Below are positions 4,881 through 20,309 of a stretch of 20,309 bases of DNA, piece by piece (the stretch's first letter is position 1; each line of letters opens with the position of its first letter). Made by a program: the position numbers and the translations under genes. This stretch comes from a virus. The stretch covers positions 1-20,309 of IMG/VR virus record IMGVR_UViG_3300007512_000255; one strand, written 5' to 3'. A model generated the notes under the pieces. The model saw only the letters and a program-made list of their open reading frames with translations. It made no database searches and was not told the DNA's origin.

Positions 4881-5096
4881 ATGAGTGAAACATATGATTT
4901 AGGTGAAAGTGTGGTACATCGTGACAGTCAAAAGATGGGGAAGGTTGTTGATGCCGCAGAAAGCACAGAAGATGGTACTACTGAATCAGTAAAAATTCAA
5001 TTTGAAGATGGTTCAACAGATTGGCATTCTGTGAGTGAAGTTTCTAGAATGTTATACGAAACTGACCCAACAGAATCAACCTTCTTACAAGATTAA
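4881..5096 (+). CDS. Small beta-rich acidic protein, conserved-type phage hypothetical
   Basis: The 71-residue protein has AAGGAG at 4868-4873, seven bases before the start, and its own promoter. The sequence MSETYDLGESVVHRDSQKMG followed by KVVDAA and VKIQFEDGSTDWHSVSE looks like a small Tudor/KOW-type barrel: turn-rich strands with a Gly-Lys-Val strand and a FEDGSTDW turn. Similar small proteins occur in T4-like marine phages. Function is unknown. Its TAA shares the palindrome TTAA with the stop of the convergent gene on the other strand, leaving no room for a separate terminator. Confidence 0.65.
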   Translation: MSETYDLGESVVHRDSQKMGKVVDAAESTEDGTTESVKIQFEDGSTDWHSVSEVSRMLYETDPTESTFLQD

Positions 5097-6667
5097 TATC
5101 CCATATTATTAGGTCTTCTGGTATTGAAGAGGTTTCTTGGTATTGCGGTTGATTGTAGTTGTTGTGGGTGTTCAGCACCTTCCATACAATAACCAGTTGC
5201 AGATGACCCCATCCAATGTGTGTTGGGGTCAGCAATACATTCTTCTTCTGAATATTCACTAACTCTTTTTGTGTCGCCCCAACCAGGCAAAGATGAGTTG
5301 CAACATCTTCTTCCGCCTGAATTTGAACATGGTCCCGCTCTATATGTTTCGTTTGCCCAGCATGGATTTCTTCTAAAAGACCCACCTCTTGGAACTCTGA
5401 CATTTCTACACTTTGGTATACCCTCTCCACAATAATTAGGAACACTGGAATCACAACATGAGTGGAATGTTATTCCACTGGTGGGCGTGCTACGACTTGC
5501 AGCGACTCCACCAGAGCCCCACATAGCCAACAATTCATTTAGGGTATCTATGTTCCATTGGTATCCAAATTGATTTGTTAGAATGTTCCATGCATTTTGA
5601 ACTGATTGCGGAAATCCTAATCTTCGCCAATCTAGGGATTCTATTGGGTCTTGATTATTGGACGCTACTACAAAAGGAACTCCCACTTCAATAAACCATA
5701 TAAACCATTCAAGATGGATGCTTCCCCATGTGGCATCTATTGGGATTGGTGAAGGAGAATTGGGAATAGTTTGGATATCTGTCTGGCTAACTCCCGTATC
5801 TATTTTTCTTGATACCTTTCCATCAACTGGATTTATTGTTAGGTTTGAAAATGCAGAAACCATTTTTTCAACAGTTGATGTTTGAATATTTAATGAATAT
5901 TGTGATGGAATAGTCCCAACATTTGGCTGTTTGGGTTGGTTTCTATCTGAACGAATAATAGATATATGGGTCAGGTCTCCTAGTAAATCTATTTCTGGGA
6001 TTGCTTCTTTAACAACTATTCGTTCCCATCCTTCGTCTGTGTCAACTTTAAACTCTTTGACCGTATATGTGCCTATGCCGGCAATTTCAACTTTGTCGTT
6101 TTCTAGTATTTCTCCAAAAACAGAAGAAAAAGAATGCTCTGTATTATTTCCTAAGAAATTAACTATTTCGTGTGATATTTTTGTGGTGACTATCTCGTCT
6201 GCTGTAGTCCACAATAAAGAACCCAACCAATACCTAGAATCATATTTCCTATAAGTTGAACTTTGACTGTTTATGCTTATAGGAACAGCGATAATAGTTT
6301 TTGTTTCGGAGTCATATTTTTCAAATTTGTATGTTCCGCTTAAATCGTATTTTGTATCATCGCCAGAAGATTCGTCTAAGTAAAAAGCATCAGATAAAGT
6401 AATAGTACTTCCTCTTTTAACGGTTCTTTTAAAGAGAGTTTCCATTTCTTCAATTTCATTTGTATCTTTGGTGTTGTAGTAAAAAATAACTTTGGTGTTA
6501 TCTTTATTAAAAACAACTGTTGGGTCGGTCATATATGCTTCAGATGTGTCGATGATGTCTTCAAGTTCATCAATAAGATGAATTGCGATGAATCTTCCAC
6601 TTCCAACTTCTCGATAAATGGAGTTCTTCTTTGTGTTTCTTACTTTCCGTGAAGAATTAAATGACAT
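5093..6667 (-). CDS. Structural-type protein with cysteine-rich C-terminal domain
   Basis: This 524-residue protein starts three bases after the stop of the upstream gene 6671-8038, so the two are co-translated. The first 200 residues are beta-rich and resemble no family I know. The middle has Trp-rich stretches (WGSIHLEWFIWFIEVG, GYQWNIDTLNELLAMWG). Residues about 404-505 hold ten cysteines, in SCCDSSVPNYC, RRCC and EEECIADPNTHW followed by GYC. That last pattern (CC, then EEC, then W, then C) is the same as modules in the giant protein at 17330. A virion surface or fibre protein is the best guess. No signal peptide or transmembrane helix is seen. Confidence 0.6.
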   Translation of the reverse strand: MSFNSSRKVRNTKKNSIYREVGSGRFIAIHLIDELEDIIDTSEAYMTDPTVVFNKDNTKVIFYYNTKDTNEIEEMETLFKRTVKRGSTITLSDAFYLDESSGDDTKYDLSGTYKFEKYDSETKTIIAVPISINSQSSTYRKYDSRYWLGSLLWTTADEIVTTKISHEIVNFLGNNTEHSFSSVFGEILENDKVEIAGIGTYTVKEFKVDTDEGWERIVVKEAIPEIDLLGDLTHISIIRSDRNQPKQPNVGTIPSQYSLNIQTSTVEKMVSAFSNLTINPVDGKVSRKIDTGVSQTDIQTIPNSPSPIPIDATWGSIHLEWFIWFIEVGVPFVVASNNQDPIESLDWRRLGFPQSVQNAWNILTNQFGYQWNIDTLNELLAMWGSGGVAASRSTPTSGITFHSCCDSSVPNYCGEGIPKCRNVRVPRGGSFRRNPCWANETYRAGPCSNSGGRRCCNSSLPGWGDTKRVSEYSEEECIADPNTHWMGSSATGYCMEGAEHPQQLQSTAIPRNLFNTRRPNNMGY

Positions 6668-9403: not shown

Positions 9404-9435
9404 AAAAAGGAGTCCTTCGGGACTCCTTTTCTTTT
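9404..9435. terminator. Bidirectional terminator with UUCG loop
   Basis: GGAGTCC (9409-9415), loop TTCG, GGACTCC (9420-9426), extended by four A-T pairs (9405-9408/9427-9430). T runs follow on both strands, so it can stop gp32 transcripts and the convergent tail operon. The tape-measure stop codon lies in its T tract (9434-9436). Confidence 0.92.
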
Positions 9436-10966
9436 ATCCAAGCATTCTTTGCCACTGAGGTATGATTTGGTATGTTGCAAATTCATTTAAATTTCTTGTA
9501 CTGGGGGCAATCATAGGAGGAGGAACATGTGTATATCGTTCTCTGTTATTACCGCTGGCCATGGTTGGGTGACTGGGCGGATATGGTCCTCGTTTTTGTG
9601 GTGGTCTTGTGAATGCGCCAGATGTATTTCTTTCTCCCTGAAGTCCAGAAGTTGATTCTTGTTCTTGTGCTTTTAATTTGGCATTTGATTCAAGCATCTT
9701 TGCTTCTTCGGATGCGGTACTTTCTTCTACTATTGCGGCCGCAGGCTCTTCTTCTTCAAGTGCAAGGTTTGGGGCCATACCACAACAATCTAAAAGTATT
9801 CCTTTTATGTCAATCAAGCAACCGTATATTATTTCCGTTGACTTTTCAAGTGCGGATATAAGTTCGCCTGTTTCCATGTTTATAGTTGTGTCACCTTCGC
9901 CGTGAATAATACCTGAAATCCCGCCACTAATGGAATCCATCCAACCTCTTCCTTCTTCACTAACACCCTGCATAAAACCACCGATTTGGTCGGTAACTTT
10001 TACTAAATTATCGGTCATTGTATCAGCCCATGCTTGCAACTCTCCACTTATCGCTTGTCCAATTTCAATACCTATTCTTGCAACTGATTCTGCTATCTCA
10101 GTGGCTATGGTTGCACTAGTTTCAGCCCATGCTCTAGCAGATTTATCAAGGCCAGACATAACATCTTTTCCTGCTTCCCATACTCCACTTGCGATATCTT
10201 TTATGCCTGTCCATGCTCCACTTACGATATCTGTTACGCCTGTCCATAATCCAATTACGGCATCTGTTATTACTGTCCAAGCACCCTTTGCAATATCTGT
10301 AATTGTTCCCCACAGCATACTAAACGGTTTAAGTATTCCATCAACTATTTGGTCAATCCATCCTCTATCGCCTCCAAGCAAATCTTCAAACAATGCAAAA
10401 TCAATGGGGTCTTCTGGTTTATTAAGAGTATTGTCTATATCGCCCAATTGTCCTGAAATTGTTTCTGTATCAAAAGATATATCACCAACACCCCCACCAG
10501 TTGCGGAACTTCCACCCAGTATTTCAGTTACTTCATTATTGGTATCTGATATTCCTTGTAAGGGGTCTATTATGGATTCACTTTCCTCTTGAGGAATTGT
10601 TTTTTGCATTCCTTCTTCTTCTGATTGAGGAACTGTTTTTTGCATTCCTTCTTCTGATAATTTAGAATCCTCTAACTCTTCAAAGTCGCCCTTTTGTTCG
10701 GTCATACTTTCTATTATAAGTTTTCCGATTTTGGCGCTGTCAATTTCTAATTTTTCAATTTCTAATTTTTCAAACTTCTTAGAGTCATCACCAAAAAGAG
10801 CATCTACGCCCTTACTAAGTAGACTTTGAGATTCTTTGGGTTTGGGAGGTTGTTCTATATTGTTTCCACCACCAAAAATGCTACCAAGTTTATTGCCTAT
10901 TCCACCCATTCCACCCATTGGTGGTGACAATCCTAAAGCCGATAGTGCTATTTCTGGAAGCGCCAT
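9434..10966 (-). CDS. Tape-measure-like tail protein (position of T4 gp29)
   Basis: The 510-residue protein is called tape measure mainly from its place: last in the order tube, chaperone, -1 extension, then this gene. Its content fits. A Gly-rich start is followed by acidic low-complexity regions with a duplicated EEGMQKT unit. Next come five 11-residue repeats (about 215-269, GAWTGIKDIAS type) and a long helical, Ala/Gly-rich region (about 270-360). T4 gp29 has 590 residues. At roughly 1.5 angstrom per residue, a helical ruler of this size suits a tail somewhat under 100 nm. AAAGGA sits about 10 bases before the start, inside the end of the preceding ORF, so they are coupled. No clear transmembrane segment is visible. 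A hub or chaperone-bound structural protein is the alternative. Confidence 0.6.
   Translation of the reverse strand: MALPEIALSALGLSPPMGGMGGIGNKLGSIFGGGNNIEQPPKPKESQSLLSKGVDALFGDDSKKFEKLEIEKLEIDSAKIGKLIIESMTEQKGDFEELEDSKLSEEGMQKTVPQSEEEGMQKTIPQEESESIIDPLQGISDTNNEVTEILGGSSATGGGVGDISFDTETISGQLGDIDNTLNKPEDPIDFALFEDLLGGDRGWIDQIVDGILKPFSMLWGTITDIAKGAWTVITDAVIGLWTGVTDIVSGAWTGIKDIASGVWEAGKDVMSGLDKSARAWAETSATIATEIAESVARIGIEIGQAISGELQAWADTMTDNLVKVTDQIGGFMQGVSEEGRGWMDSISGGISGIIHGEGDTTINMETGELISALEKSTEIIYGCLIDIKGILLDCCGMAPNLALEEEEPAAAIVEESTASEEAKMLESNAKLKAQEQESTSGLQGERNTSGAFTRPPQKRGPYPPSHPTMASGNNRERYTHVPPPMIAPSTRNLNEFATYQIIPQWQRMLG
10160..10324 (-). repeat. Five 33-bp tandem repeats inside the tape-measure-like gene
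   Basis: Units start at 10160, 10193, 10226, 10259 and 10292 and share ATATCTNTTA and TGTCCA blocks. They encode an 11-residue repeat with Trp at position 3 and Asp near position 8 (for example GLWTGVTDIVS). The period and Trp placement suit a ruler-like helical segment. Confidence 0.8.
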
Positions 10967-10973
10967 ATATTAT

Positions 10974-11177
10974 TTATCCTTTTGCGTTTCTTTCTGCCAT
11001 CTTATCTCTTATTTTTTCGTTTTCTACCGCAATATACTCTATCAATTGTGCAACATAGATTTCTTTTTCCCAAGGAATCATTGATTCTAATTCTGTTAAA
11101 CTATATTTGTGATGTTGCATTAGTTGAAAGTTTAAGGTGTAATATCCTACTAGGCTCAGATGGCTGAGCCCTATTTG
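10974..11177 (-). CDS. -1 frameshift extension of the gp26-family gene (GT-like chaperone extension)
   Basis: This frame has no stop from 11177 down to TAA at 10974-10976. Entered by a -1 slip on T TTT TTC it adds 67 residues to the first 239 of the upstream protein, for a fusion of 306. The extension reads QIGLSHLSLVGYYTLNFQLM and continues HHKYSLTELESMIPWEKEIYVAQ, ending in a charged helix. An internal ATG at 11120 could alternatively give a free 48-residue protein, but it has no good ribosome binding site, and the frame upstream of it is open exactly back to the slip site. The tyrosine-rich start and the LTELESMIPWE helix resemble the T domains of tail assembly chaperones such as lambda GT, which recruit tail tube subunits to the chaperone-coated tape measure. 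Confidence 0.75.
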   Translation of the reverse strand, partial: QIGLSHLSLVGYYTLNFQLMQHHKYSLTELESMIPWEKEIYVAQLIEYIAVENEKIRDKMAERNAKG

Positions 11178-11183
11178 AAAAAA
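11153..11183 (-). promoter_or_regulatory. Programmed -1 ribosomal frameshift site (slippery heptamer plus hairpin)
   Basis: Read on the - strand: slippery T TTT TTC (11183-11177) in the correct register with zero-frame codons GAT TTT TTC. Then come AAA TAG (six bases, zero-frame stop) and a perfect hairpin, GGCTCAG (11170-11164), loop CCAT, CTGAGCC (11159-11153). All three elements have textbook spacing. Confidence 0.82.
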
Positions 11184-11893
11184 TCCAGAAGCCCTTTAAG
11201 TGTAATTTCCCTCGTTTCTCCATCTGATGTTTCATATTCTAAATTATATTCTACTTTCGGAGCAGTTGAATAAAATTGAATTATCTTTTCATACTGGCCT
11301 TTAGTAAGATTATTTACAAAGTCTTCCAATTCTGTTCTTGGAATTATACTACAATCTAAAGTTTCTTCTTTAGTTTCAATTTTATCAATAGTATTAATAA
11401 TCACATAAAACAGAGGAACGGTATATTCTTCATTTTTTGGTTTAGTATGTTGGATTTCTTCCATCATATGAAGTGAAGGGTATTTCATTGTGACAACGAT
11501 ATCGTCTGATATTTGAATCTCGTTTGTGTGTTCCTTATCCTTTTGTACTGTAATATCTTCAATGTTTATTTCTTTTTGTATTCTCTCTTGTGTTTCTGGG
11601 CAAATAATAGTTGGGTTTAATATTTCCCCAATAGATTTTGCTCTTAATTGAAGATACATGTATTCAACATCAAACATAGGCAAATCTTCAAGGTTATCAA
11701 TATCATCAAAACATGCACCGATTAATTGCTTAATGGCATTCATTATTGATGATTCGTCAGATGATTCTTTTGCCATTAATAGAATCTTTTCTTCTTTTAC
11801 CAAAAATGGTCTAAATGTTTTGCTTTCTCCAGTTGAAGGTAATATCAATTCATATTTTGGAGTCGCTTCTTTTAAAATATCTACTATACTCAT
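11171..11893 (-). CDS. 26: gp26-family baseplate/tail assembly protein (G-like chaperone)
   Basis: The 240-residue protein matches the T4 gp26 baseplate family seen in marine T4-like phages: YELILPSTGESKTFRPF, KEEKILLMAKE, a Cys/Asp-rich turn, MFDVEYMYLQLRAKSIGE, and a C-terminal helical part (GQYEKIIQFYSTAP). T4 gp26 is slightly shorter (208). It is classically called a hub component, but its place between tail tube and tape measure and its frameshift-ready end argue that it acts as the G-type tail assembly chaperone. AAAGGA lies about 10 bases before the start at 11893. Its TAG is part of the spacer of the frameshift signal, so some ribosomes should continue into the next frame. Confidence 0.75.
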   Translation of the reverse strand: MSIVDILKEATPKYELILPSTGESKTFRPFLVKEEKILLMAKESSDESSIMNAIKQLIGACFDDIDNLEDLPMFDVEYMYLQLRAKSIGEILNPTIICPETQERIQKEINIEDITVQKDKEHTNEIQISDDIVVTMKYPSLHMMEEIQHTKPKNEEYTVPLFYVIINTIDKIETKEETLDCSIIPRTELEDFVNNLTKGQYEKIIQFYSTAPKVEYNLEYETSDGETREITLKGLLDFFK

Positions 11894-11908: not shown

Positions 11909-12430
11909 TTATTTGTAGTCATATTTACGATAAGTTATTGTTACCTGTAGTTTTGCAGTTTCGTTTAGCATACCATATCCATAATTTGATGGTATAATAG
12001 AACTTGGAAATGCTCCATACAGAGAAAATGTTCCTTGAGGCACATCAAAGTGGTCTAAGCAAGAAATTGTCATATTAACAGTGTTGGGACTTGTATTCAC
12101 TGGTATCGCGACTTCGTTACTTGGAATTAACCCATTCATCCAATTTTCAAAAAATTTTCTTTGGCTTTGGTCTTCAGACACAGGAATAGTCATTACAATT
12201 TCTGTATTAAATTGTCTTCGGTATGGATATTGCCTAATAGCACCATATTGTGCATCTGTAAAAAAGGAGAATCCTCTTGCCGGAAGTGTTATACTTTCTG
12301 GAAATACTTGGGAGCCACCGAAAAAATCTACAGCATATCTGGCTGGAGATGCAAAATTTTTGAACATCTTTTTAAATTCATTTATAGTTCTGTGATGTCC
12401 CTGTTGTTGTAGTGTGGATGTTATCGGCAT
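11909..12430 (-). CDS. 19: gp19-type tail tube protein
   Basis: The 173-residue protein is near the length of T4 gp19 (163). It shows the family pattern: an N-terminal helix, a strand set with ITLPARGFSF, then GAIRQYPYRRQFNTEIVM, and the VSEDQSQRKFFENWMNG helix, followed by beta strands ending in LQVTITYRKYDYK. These form the tube ring subunit that polymerises inside the contractile sheath. The related gp48 and gp54 initiators share the fold, so gp54 is an alternative. Its place just before the chaperone gene favours the tube itself. The ribosome binding site is weak. A near-consensus late promoter (CATAAATA) lies about 35 bases upstream, which suits a highly produced late protein. Confidence 0.72.
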   Translation of the reverse strand: MPITSTLQQQGHHRTINEFKKMFKNFASPARYAVDFFGGSQVFPESITLPARGFSFFTDAQYGAIRQYPYRRQFNTEIVMTIPVSEDQSQRKFFENWMNGLIPSNEVAIPVNTSPNTVNMTISCLDHFDVPQGTFSLYGAFPSSIIPSNYGYGMLNETAKLQVTITYRKYDYK

Positions 12431-15041: not shown

Positions 15042-17330
15042 ATGGTCTTTACACAAGATGATTCATTTAGAATTTCTATTAAGAAACTTTCTGTAAAAAA
15101 ATTAGACGGTGAAGGTGAAATAGAATTATATGGAGAGAAAACTGAAAAAATCGGGGATGCAATCCATCAATTTACAATAAAAGAAAGCATCTTGCCTCTA
15201 GAATCAACAATCGTAGGTTCTCTGGTTATTAGAGAACCAGGCCATATGATTGACGATTTTGTAATGACTGGCCAGAATGAAATTTTACACATAGAAATGA
15301 ATACTCCAACCGTTCCTGACTCCGATGTAACATTAGAACTTTGTGTTAGTGAATGTAATAGGATAGACAATGTTGCAGAGTTGAGTGGCATCATGGGAGA
15401 AAATCTTACAAGAAACTATTATAAAATTAAACTGGTTTCTTGTGAAAGTTTATACTATAATATGGATATTTTAACTCAAGAACAAAATGCAGAATTCATG
15501 AACAAAGATAGATTTTTAAAAATTGCTACTAGTGGTGAAGGCGGTGGTGAAGAAGAAGGCCCGCAACTAGGTGGTTTATTGGGTGTTGCTGGGGATATTG
15601 TTGAAGGATTATTTGAGGAAGAGGAGGAAGAGGAGAAAGAGGGATTGGTCAATACCCTTGCACCGAAATATTTTAATGGTGGAAAATGGCATGTTGAGAA
15701 CCCTATGGAAATTGAAGGAACTCATAATTCCATTTGGTTAAAGGCAAATCAAAACATGTATCCGTGGGGCAAATTGCCTAATCAAATGCCATTAATGCAA
15801 TTGATGTCTAATTTAGCAGAAAACTCTCTTGATAAAGATCAAAAACACGCTAATTTTTTATTCTGGAACGATTTCGATGGGTGGCATTTTAAATCCGTTG
15901 CAAAAATGATTAAAGAAAATAAAAATAATATTTTAAAATCATCTCAAATTACCTATACACTGAAAACTCCATATGTTTATGCAAAAGGACCGGCCGCAAC
16001 TTCTAAAAAATCATTTGTAAAGGATAAGGGAGATCCAAGACTATTTGAATTGTCTGGAAATCGGGAAACTAATCATTTAGGTTTGTGGCAAAATGGAGCA
16101 TATTCTTCATATTATGAATATATAAAACCAAATTATGATGATCCCTATCATAACTATCTTGATACTTCTTCTTCAATAAAAACTAAATTTATTAACTATT
16201 CGTATCAAGATGTTTGGCCTAATCCAGACGAATGTTTATGGGAAACTGTGGAAACCTATAAACTTCTTCCTTCTAAAATAAAAACAGAGAATGATAAAGA
16301 TTCTCCAAACAAAACCAGAAGATTAAAAAAGAACGACATCTATGGATATTTTGGTTCTGCATTTAATGACGAAACTCCAAATAAGTATGATTATTTGTCA
16401 AGCAGAATTGAAAATGGAAAAATGGGAAAACAAAATAATGTAATGTGGCAAACTGTACTTGACCAAACAGATTTAAAAATAAGCCAATTAGAAAAAATAT
16501 ATAAAAATATTATTGAGCCAACAAAAGAAAATTATGCAAGGTATCTTCACCTACAGAACCTTAAAGAGAAATGGAATGTATATCGTCATTCAATTTGCTG
16601 TGAAAAGCAAGACACGAAGATGCAATTCTTTGCAGTTATTGATGATGCAAGACTTATATCTGACGATGGTGGAGAAGCGAACAGCGGTGGGATATATGAA
16701 TATACATGGAGAGAGGTTGAGTTATGGCCTTCAGACGCTATCAACGAATGGCCTGATGGGGTAGAACCAGAAATTTTAACAAACGAAGAAGCACCAATTT
16801 CTGTGGTGGTTGTTCCAAATGGATTGCGAGGCGGGCCTGTTGATGAAGAAGAAAACGGTGCTGACCAGCCATCAGATTTGGGAAGTGCGTGGAATCTTAA
16901 CGAACTAATGAATGTAAAAGAAGATGATAATATATTTGTTGGTCCAGGAATTAATGTTGCAGATAAAGATTTTAATGATTATCCAGAATCATATCAAATG
17001 ATGCCAGTTGGTGGTTATTTTAAAGTTGGAGAAGACCCATGTGCCGAAGACCACGAAGATAAAATACATTTTCATAAACACATTGTGCAAATGAATCGAA
17101 TTCCTTCTTATATGCTGGAATTTATTTCTCCTCTTGGTTCTACAGTAGAGGAAGAAGATGAAGACATTTCACTTTTAGAATGGTGGGAAGATTGGGTTTC
17201 AGGCATCTTAGGAGTTCCACTTAATGGCGATGAAGATGAAGAACAAACTGAACAAGATTCTGAACTAGAAGAAATATTTTTCTTTGATGTTCCAAATGCA
17301 CATGATGGATTATGCGACTGTATTGAATAA
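15042..17330 (+). CDS. Large baseplate hub-like protein (gp27-like)
   Basis: The 762-residue protein starts with a beta domain ([20 protein letters not shown] then [10 protein letters not shown]) typical of the large hub proteins of marine T4-like phages. It continues with a ring domain containing [20 protein letters not shown] around residue 273, a motif I recall from those hub proteins. An acidic linker of consecutive Glu (about 192-200) splits the N-terminal part, and the C-terminus is again strongly acidic ([15 protein letters not shown]). T4 gp27 is about half this size (391). The hub trimer would connect tube, needle and wedges. AGGA lies seven bases upstream of the start. Its stop shares one base with the next start (TAATG). 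Confidence 0.55.
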
Positions 17331-20309
17331 TGAGTACTCATAGAACATGTTGTTGTGGATGTAGTGATAATCCTTGTAATTCTAATGAGTTCTTTTATGA
17401 ATTTGGAACACAAGGAACTTGCCCTGTTTGTGCAATTGGAGAATCTTCATATACTGATTCATTGACGGAAGAGGTCGCTCCTATGCCTGGGGAACTTGAT
17501 GATTTGTTTATTGGTAATTCTTGTTGGTCTTCTAATGTTTGTGCGGAATATGACCCATGCCTACCAGACATGGCCCCACCAGATTATTATCAGTTCGCAT
17601 CTCCTATGGGATTTCTTCCGTGGTCACCACAAGTATTTGCAGAATGGATACAGTATTATCAGAGTCCTCTTGTTCCAAGAGGCAATTGTACTATGCACTG
17701 CACTGAAGAAAATGTTGGGTGTCATAAAATTGCTTTTACGGGTAATATTGGTAACTATCATACATTTGGACTTGAGTGTGGTGCTAAAGTAGCAACCGTC
17801 CCACCAGAACCAGATGAAGATTTTGGCAACTGGCAATGGGTAAGAGAATGGGTTCAATCTGGTGGCAAGTTAGTTGTTATGGGAGAAGCAAAAGAGTGTA
17901 CGGATGAATCATTAATATTTGATAGACCTGAGCCTTTTTATCAATCTGCTGGGTGTAACATTCCATGTGATGTAGAAAATGTAGTAGAAGAATATGAATC
18001 ACAAAGTTTTACTGGTCAGGAAATATCAGAAAGATTAAAACTGTTTGCAGAATTTTGCGCTGATGAAAGTGATGAAGAAATTACTGAACCAGAAAAGTTC
18101 TTTGATTTTAATAACGAACTAATAAATGAGGTTGAAATTCTTGAAAATGAAGGCAATCTTACTTGTTGTCAAAAAACTAAAAAACCATTCATAAAAGAAA
18201 TTGATGGTAGTTTATGGTTAGCAGATCTTCTTGCAAGCCTTGGTCTTCCTTCACCACCAGATATTTTTCCCGAAGGAATTTTAGACATTGTACAATATTA
18301 TTTGGAAATCTTTGGAGTCGATATAGGACCAACACCAAATTTACCACTTCCATTTAAAACAATTGATGCAACTGGATTAGTTCCAAGAAACAAAGGAAAG
18401 GGACTTGTTGGCAGTTGCGATTCTAAAGATTGTACAGTTGTATATAAACAAAATGGTAAAGGCGCAGTTATTGTTGTTTATGACAGTAATGTTTGGGGAA
18501 TGACTGCAACGCAAGTACCAATATCAGAATATGAACTTATTAATAACGGATTAACACCAGAAGAAAATAAATTAAGGCATTGCAATAATGATTTTTGGAA
18601 ATTCCTTTGTGAAGAGTTTTTAATTGAAGAAGGTTATGAACCCACTGAGTGTGAAGGCCCAGAATTTTGGGATAACATGGGTCCAGACTATCAAAATAAT
18701 GAATGTGTTCCTACTGCGGCCTGCTGTTTACCAGATGGAACTTGTCAAAATCTAAATGTTTGGCAATGTACGGAAGCACACGGAATATGGAGAGGAAGAT
18801 GTGCAGACGAAGTTTGCAATAACAACAATACTGCTAATACACAAGATTGGTGTTGTCCATCATGTGAGGAATTAGAAGAACCGTGTGAACCTATGCCAAC
18901 AGGTTCTTGTTGTAGATGCACTGGACAACTAGTTTCTGGTGGTGGTGGAAATAATGGTAATTCTAACTTAGATGAACCCATTGGTGGATGGGATGCATGG
19001 TGTTATCCAGATGGACCTAATGATGCATGTTGTCCACCAGATAATCCCAATCATATCTGTTGTACAGACCCAGATAGTATCTGGTGTAGTTGTTATGATA
19101 GATGTTGTATTCCTGTTGGAAACGATGGTGTACTTGGTGCTTGTGTTGCTGTTTGTGAACCACCAACTCCCAAAAGTCCTCCTTGTAATGATTACGGAAT
19201 TTATAACGAGCAGGATTGTACTGAGGTTGCGGGGGAATGGATGCCAGGAAGAGTTAGGAACTATGGGGATACTTGTTTCAAATGTGGACAATGGGATAGT
19301 GAATCAAGAACTTGCATTTGTCCAAATGAAGACTGGACACACGATGACCCGTATCCAGATTCCGAAGGAAGATGTCGATGTCGTTGTGGTGGTTGCTGTT
19401 CACCAAAGGGCGCATGTTGTTGGGGTGGTTTTTCCAATTGGAACTGTCAGATAATGACTCAATACGAATGCGAAGGAGTCAATAGTCCTCCAAATGCAGT
19501 TTTTCATGAGGGAGTATGGTGTAATGAAATTCCAGACCCAGAATCTCCATGTTATGCTGATGAACCGTGTGAATGTGAATGTTTGGGTGAGATGTATGAA
19601 TGGGAATGTTGCCAACAACCTGGATACACTTGGAAAGAAAATCAAGACTGTGATTCTTGTGAATGTCCAGAATGTGATACAGATAGTGATTGTTTGGATG
19701 GTGAATGTTGTGAAGATGGGGAATGTATAGAAAGAGAATGTTGTACCGATGAAGATTGTGAAGGAGAACAATGTTGTGAAGATGGAGAATGTGCTGATTG
19801 TATAGAAGAGTTAGGACATTGCTGTGTTCCGTACGGCACACCGTCTTATGTAATACTAGAGGAGCATGGTATATGCTTAGGCCGCGATAGTATCTGGGCG
19901 GGGCATGTCTATGGATGCCCGCGGCATAATGCAGATGGCCCAGCGAATTTGTGCTTCCCACCAACCACCTGCTGTCTGACTGGTGTTGAGGGATCGTGCG
20001 GTGAAGGAATTCCTGATGGCAGTGTTGGAACTTATGTTGGAATTACAAAAGAACAGTGTGAATCTATTGCAGGTGGAATATTTTGGCCAAGAAGTTCAAT
20101 AGACTCTCCAGGATCTGATGGATATCACGAATGCAAAGAAAGTGGGTGTGGCGCGCCGGCAGATTTTGAGTGTGTTTGCAATTATGGATACTGTGTTGAA
20201 GAAGAAGGTCAAGATTGTGGCTACGCAGAGGTTGTACATGAGTGTACCGTAACAACTTTACCTGCTTGCGATGAATCGAGTAATGAGACAGTGTGTAGGA
20301 GACACGCTT
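17330..20309 (+). CDS. Giant cysteine-rich virion-type protein, 3' end beyond window
   Basis: The frame is open for at least 993 residues from an ATG overlapping the hub stop, so it is translated with the baseplate genes. By hand count it has about 100 cysteines, four in the first dozen residues (CCCGC) and most after residue 460. Modules of the form CC, DG-C, Gln/Glu-C, Gly-x-W, then C recur: ACCLPDGTC with [13 protein letters not shown] (about 462), GACCWGG with YECEG and GVWC (about 694), and [11 protein letters not shown] with [11 protein letters not shown] (about 879). They resemble GACC-type repeats of surface proteins in other bacteria. A 22-residue repeat lies at about 793-821. No signal peptide. 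Likely a disulfide- or metal-stabilised baseplate or fibre protein; the exact role is unknown. Confidence 0.65.
19706..19792 (+). repeat. Direct repeat coding CCEDGEC, 66 bp apart
   Basis: Nearly identical 21-base copies at 19706-19726 and 19772-19792 (one synonymous base differs) encode CCEDGEC twice, 22 residues apart. The spacer ([15 protein letters not shown]) is itself cysteine-rich. This indicates internal duplication within the giant protein. Confidence 0.75.

Follow-up and report, generated by a model that had tools for sequence, protein, structure and literature searches.

Gene content and layout of the locus

The window, by which we mean the whole 20.3-kb stretch of DNA analysed, is the record of an uncultivated virus, a marine T4-like phage. 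Its minus strand carries, from 5′ to 3′, a tail tube-family gene, a homologue of gp26 and a tape-measure-like gene (Table 1), which places gp26 where a TAC-N/TAC-NC pair of tail assembly chaperones (TACs) is found. In several named relatives, the annotated neighbours of gp26 are likewise tube-family or tape-measure genes. The zero-frame protein of 240 aa belongs to the family PF12322/phrog_150, i.e. gp26.

The gp26 ORF ends in CTG GAT TTT TTC AAA TAG on the minus strand and thus contains the heptamer T TTT TTC in the register required for tandem −1 slippage. The heptamer (11183..11177) is separated from a perfect hairpin (11170..11153) by a 6-nt spacer, AAATAG, that includes the zero-frame stop codon TAG. 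Read in the −1 frame, the sequence stays open for 67 more residues (11177..10977) up to a TAA at 10976..10974, leaving a gap of 7 nt to the ATG (10966) of the 510-aa tape-measure-like ORF. The earlier note had described, from the letters of the DNA, the slippery heptamer closing the gp26 ORF, a 7-bp hairpin 6 nt 3′ of it, a 67-residue extension in the −1 frame with its end just ahead of the tape-measure-like gene, and a fusion of 306 aa; all of its coordinates and lengths hold.

Table 1. Features of the gp26 locus and its flanking genes in the window
Feature	Position	Strand	Evidence
Tail tube-family gene, 173 aa, upstream of gp26	11909..12430	-	phrog_45 tail tube, 1.5e-16
gp26 homologue, short form (TAC-N-like), zero frame, 240 aa	11171..11893	-	PF12322 T4_baseplate, 1.8e-55; phrog_150, 2.1e-55
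SD-like AAGGG, 5′ of the heptamer with 8 nt in between	11192..11196	-	SD tetramer peak; anti-SD pairing, p 4e-12
Slippery heptamer T TTT TTC	11177..11183	-	Sequence; TTTTTTN kept in 180/182 complete relatives
7-bp hairpin GGCTCAG-CCAT-CTGAGCC, 6 nt 3′ of the heptamer	11153..11170	-	Perfect stem; covariation in 7 selected loci
gp51 C-terminal domain, read in the −1 frame from the slip site; fusion of 306 aa	10974..11183	-	phrog_634, 3.5e-24; pN/pS 0.26
Tape-measure-like gene, 510 aa, downstream	9434..10966	-	Several tape measure PHROGs, best 8.8e-9

An open run as long as the −1 extension occurs at 13% of minus-strand positions in the window and at 1% in shuffles. Because such a run is not rare by itself, the case for its translation rests on the conservation of the heptamer and on purifying selection in the −1 frame.

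Elsewhere in the window, two ORFs near tail and baseplate genes are rich in cysteine: one of at least 993 aa (17330-20308, plus strand, running off the end), throughout its length, and another of 524 aa (5093-6667, minus strand), in its C-terminal part. Neither had a Pfam match at E 0.1.

Conservation of the slippery heptamer

Relatives were collected by similarity to gp26 itself and are therefore unselected for the slip site. Among 182 complete loci, 180 carry TTTTTTN, in register and close to the gp26 stop codon, with an open −1 frame beyond it (102 of 103 and 78 of 79, respectively, in two sets that share a few contigs). They include cyanophages, a Pelagibacter phage, Caulobacter phage Cr30, an Ochrobactrum phage, Aeromonas phage PX29, Vibrio phages nt-1 and EniLVp02, Stenotrophomonas phage YB07 and Rhizobium phage RHph_I1_9. 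The two exceptions, which lack the canonical heptamer, are Vibrio phages K452 and K413. In both, the gp26 stop codon forms part of a TAATG, and no tape measure gene is annotated directly downstream.

After dereplication, 130 site-bearing loci remained. Given their proteins, codon usage predicts the heptamer in about 61 of them (~47%), and all 130 carry it; the nominal probability of this conservation, 10^-43, overstates the independence of the loci because they are related. Elsewhere in gp26, FF dipeptides are coded by T TTT TT in just 6 out of 61 cases. The codon preceding the FF of the slip site ends in T whether it specifies Asp, Asn, Ser (AGT or TCT) or Ala, and a T kept across such different amino acids is unexplained by protein constraint.

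Frame breaks at homopolymers are a classic type of sequencing error, and the one seen here could in principle be an artefact of this kind or mark a fused gene in decay. However, the break falls at an identical position in the same 180 of 182 contigs and isolates, and there is purifying selection on either side of it. The comparison of relatives refutes the artefact, to which we assign next to no chance.

The −1 extension and gp51

By its match to phrog_634 (‘baseplate hub assembly catalyst’), the −1 extension belongs to the gp51 family, and its C domain aligns with the C-terminus of gp51 (hhalign E 3e-6). Over the 15 codons between the usual zero-frame stop and the commonest first Met, the −1 frame has a pN/pS of 0.255, compared with 1.5–1.6 for the other two. 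The segment 5′ of the usual first Met is, by these substitution ratios, under purifying selection in the −1 frame, and this stretch would therefore be translated in that frame. The gp26 loci thus combine a slippery site with a conserved open alternative frame, as in a TAC-N/TAC-NC pair. The proposal that a short downstream ORF is joined to gp26 has gained support from this comparison; the identity of that ORF as gp51, and the T4 equivalent of the fusion in gene 51, had been missed.

The downstream ORF is given as a separate gp51 CDS in public records (e.g. syn9, P-SSM4, Mosig and PX29), and it could be an independent gene that needs no frameshift and is translated by reinitiation at a start codon further 3′, an arrangement that would suit the 7 of 130 nonredundant loci in which the gp26 stop overlaps an ATG of the −1 frame (TGATG or TAATG). 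Against this, selection in the −1 frame already operates 5′ of the usual first Met, the extension in the window has no Met until about residue 22, and an ATG or GTG accompanied by a Shine-Dalgarno (SD) tetramer occurs within the first 25 codons in only 8 of the 130 loci. In addition, T4 gp51 is colinear with the entire fusion, and the heptamer is kept beyond the codon-usage expectation. Reinitiation without frameshifting is thus very improbable. In loci with TGATG or TAATG at the gp26 stop (L083, L088, L089, L090, L091, L097 and L108), the gp51 domain might in addition be produced by itself.

Candidate stimulatory elements

In the 130 nonredundant loci, SD-like tetramers (AGGG, GAGG, AAGG and similar) mostly start 12–15 nt before the heptamer. 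Their pairing to the anti-SD exceeds that of synonymous shuffles (p 4e-12), so the conserved E/K/R-G residues encoded at this place do not fully account for it.

Downstream, the hairpin of the window reaches 8 bp if an extra G-U pair is counted, with an RNA minimum free energy of −12.9 kcal/mol (z −2.4). Across the 130 loci, folding of the 51 nt that follow a spacer of 5 nt is stronger than in synonymous shuffles (mean z −1.47, p 4e-15), compared with a mean z of −0.28 to −0.39 in control windows within the body of gp26. Stems of at least 6 bp beginning 5–6 nt 3′ of the heptamer number 16 against 4.1 expected. A hairpin in the same register as that of the window was found in seven loci (L002-L004, L122, L139, L151 and L181), and 4 of the 8 pairs show changes on both sides; as these loci were chosen for forming the hairpin, the percentage of paired positions among them is biased, and the synonymous-shuffle test is the unbiased one. 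Most relatives have a different stem in this place, or none of such length. A role of the downstream hairpin as a transcription terminator was also considered and rejected, as no terminator-like site was found. An Rfam search with the hairpin returned no family, only a single sub-threshold chance match elsewhere.

In the E. coli gene dnaX, a cellular gene, the frameshift signal consists of an SD-like sequence ~10 nt upstream, the heptamer A AAA AAG and a stem-loop 5–6 nt downstream. The three-part layout of the window resembles it, with the SD-like and hairpin parts recognised here on statistical grounds.

The change of frame might instead take place during transcription, by slippage of RNA polymerase on the T run, and the poly-T run is indeed present, reaching 7–8 T in 15 of the 130 loci. 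In the other 115, it is exactly 6 T, which is short for polymerase slippage; moreover, the tandem-slip register, the upstream SD-like element and the hairpin at a spacing of 5–7 nt fit ribosomal frameshifting. Transcriptional slippage is accordingly extremely unlikely in our estimation.

Comparison with T4 and other tail assembly chaperone loci

T4 has two PF12322 proteins, gp26 (208 aa) and gp51 (249 aa), the latter extended at its C-terminus. A profile of the predicted fusion (residues 17-284) aligns end to end with T4-type gp51 (residues 7-246), across the slip junction, with a probability of 99.3 and an E value of 1.1e-20. T4 and the window thus share a family, with T4 gp26 corresponding to the short form and T4 gp51 to the whole frameshift product. 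In T4, however, the short and long forms are two divergently oriented genes, while in the window a single gene would give both through a −1 frameshift, and the end of T4 gp26 lacks a T TTT TTN heptamer, unlike gp26 of the window with its T TTT TTC. From these comparisons, T4 keeps the short and long forms as two genes, where the window phage, like almost every other T4-like phage in the sample, appears to use one.

The slippery sequence of lambda G/GT is GGGAAAG, unlike the T TTT TTC of the window. In phage lambda, G/GT is a chaperone gene between the tail tube and tape measure genes, with a −1 frameshift near its end that yields a minor long form (PMC5009743). The gene position and the −1 frameshift near the gene end are shared with the window. 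A TAC locus in the Vandenendeviridae and Andersonviridae (phage Adele) has a poly-T slippery motif ending TAC-N and, ahead of the tape measure gene, an open −1 frame that is conserved (PMC12846349). The window shares both features, although these are other phage families and the motif is GTTTTT (PMC12846349) rather than T TTT TTC.

The AlphaFold models of gp26 and of a T4-like gp51 are confident (pLDDT 92 and 91, respectively). Foldseek searches of both models against the PDB gave no significant match, the HK97 tail chaperone 2ob9 coming up for gp26 only at E 2.0-2.2 (probability 0.10-0.12), and a sequence search of gp26 against PDB chains returned nothing relevant. Placement in the TAC superfamily consequently rests on gene order, frameshift architecture and the literature, not on fold. 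T4 gp51 is reported to be needed for assembly yet absent from the final particle (PMC3004832), which is consistent with a chaperone. With a short form in PF12322/phrog_150 and an extension homologous to the gp51 C-terminus, the locus in the window matches the T4-like gp26/gp51 tail assembly chaperones; gene order, frameshift architecture and colinearity with T4 gp51 support the earlier note's proposal that gp26-type proteins are G/GT-like tail assembly chaperones of T4-like phages.

A model of the probable gp26-gp51 frameshift

We consider it highly probable that a programmed −1 ribosomal frameshift produces a G/GT-like pair consisting of a gp26 short form and a gp26-gp51 long form. The conservation of the site and selection in the −1 frame lend support, at the level of sequence, to the frameshift proposed in the earlier note. 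In the window phage, some ribosomes very probably slip back by one base near the end of gp26, a device known from long-tailed phages. Most would halt at the TAG and yield the 240-aa short form, and we infer that in a minority the putative downstream stem-loop, aided by the candidate SD-like sequence upstream, causes a pause on U UUU UUC. The paused ribosomes would slip back one base and read 67 more codons, giving the long form of 306 aa. If the pair acts as lambda G/GT does, coating of the tape measure protein would fall to the short form, and recruitment of tube subunits to the C-terminal domain of the long form. T4 would do likewise through two separate genes, 26 for the short form and 51 for the long one.

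Relation to published work and implications for annotation

Tail assembly chaperone genes of T4-like phages were reported in 2022 (Vladimirov, Gautam & Davidson, Virology 566:9-15). In the papers that summarise this study, it is cited for poly-T slippery sequences in the TAC-N genes of T4-like phages (PMC12846349) and, in the PRFect paper, for the presence, in some T4-like phages, of a short gene alongside a fused long gene that is separate from it (PMC10885494). From these citing summaries and the colinearity with T4 gp51, we infer that the genes named there are gp26 and gp51. To the extent that such summaries convey it, the central idea, a frameshift in the gp26 TAC of T4-like phages, has very probably been published in substance, and the claim of novelty for gp26 as the missing chaperone of these phages is unsupported, as their TAC genes were already reported in 2022. 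The three-part signal of SD-like element, slip site and hairpin, together with the covarying hairpin, may be new detail, and what is added to the published idea is breadth, detail on the frameshift signal and corrected annotation.

In cyanophages and marine vibriophages, gp51 lacks its first ~200 residues according to the relevant passages of Sullivan et al. 2010 (PMC3037559), and those passages offer no frameshift explanation for the short protein. The missing ~200 residues of cyanophage gp51 would be supplied by gp26 through the frameshift, which would explain this oddity. The chances seem evenly balanced that, outside the T4 subfamily, gp51 of T4-like phages exists mainly or only as the frameshift extension of gp26, made through a dnaX-like signal (an SD-like element, U UUU UUN and a fast-evolving stem-loop), that the ‘truncated gp51’ of cyanophages are not independent genes, and that in T4 the long form exists as a stand-alone copy, gene 51. 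The annotated regions of the named phage records (L083-L098) contain two separate genes and no joined gp26-gp51 CDS; on the frameshift reading, the two ‘baseplate hub’ genes of these records should be annotated as joined.
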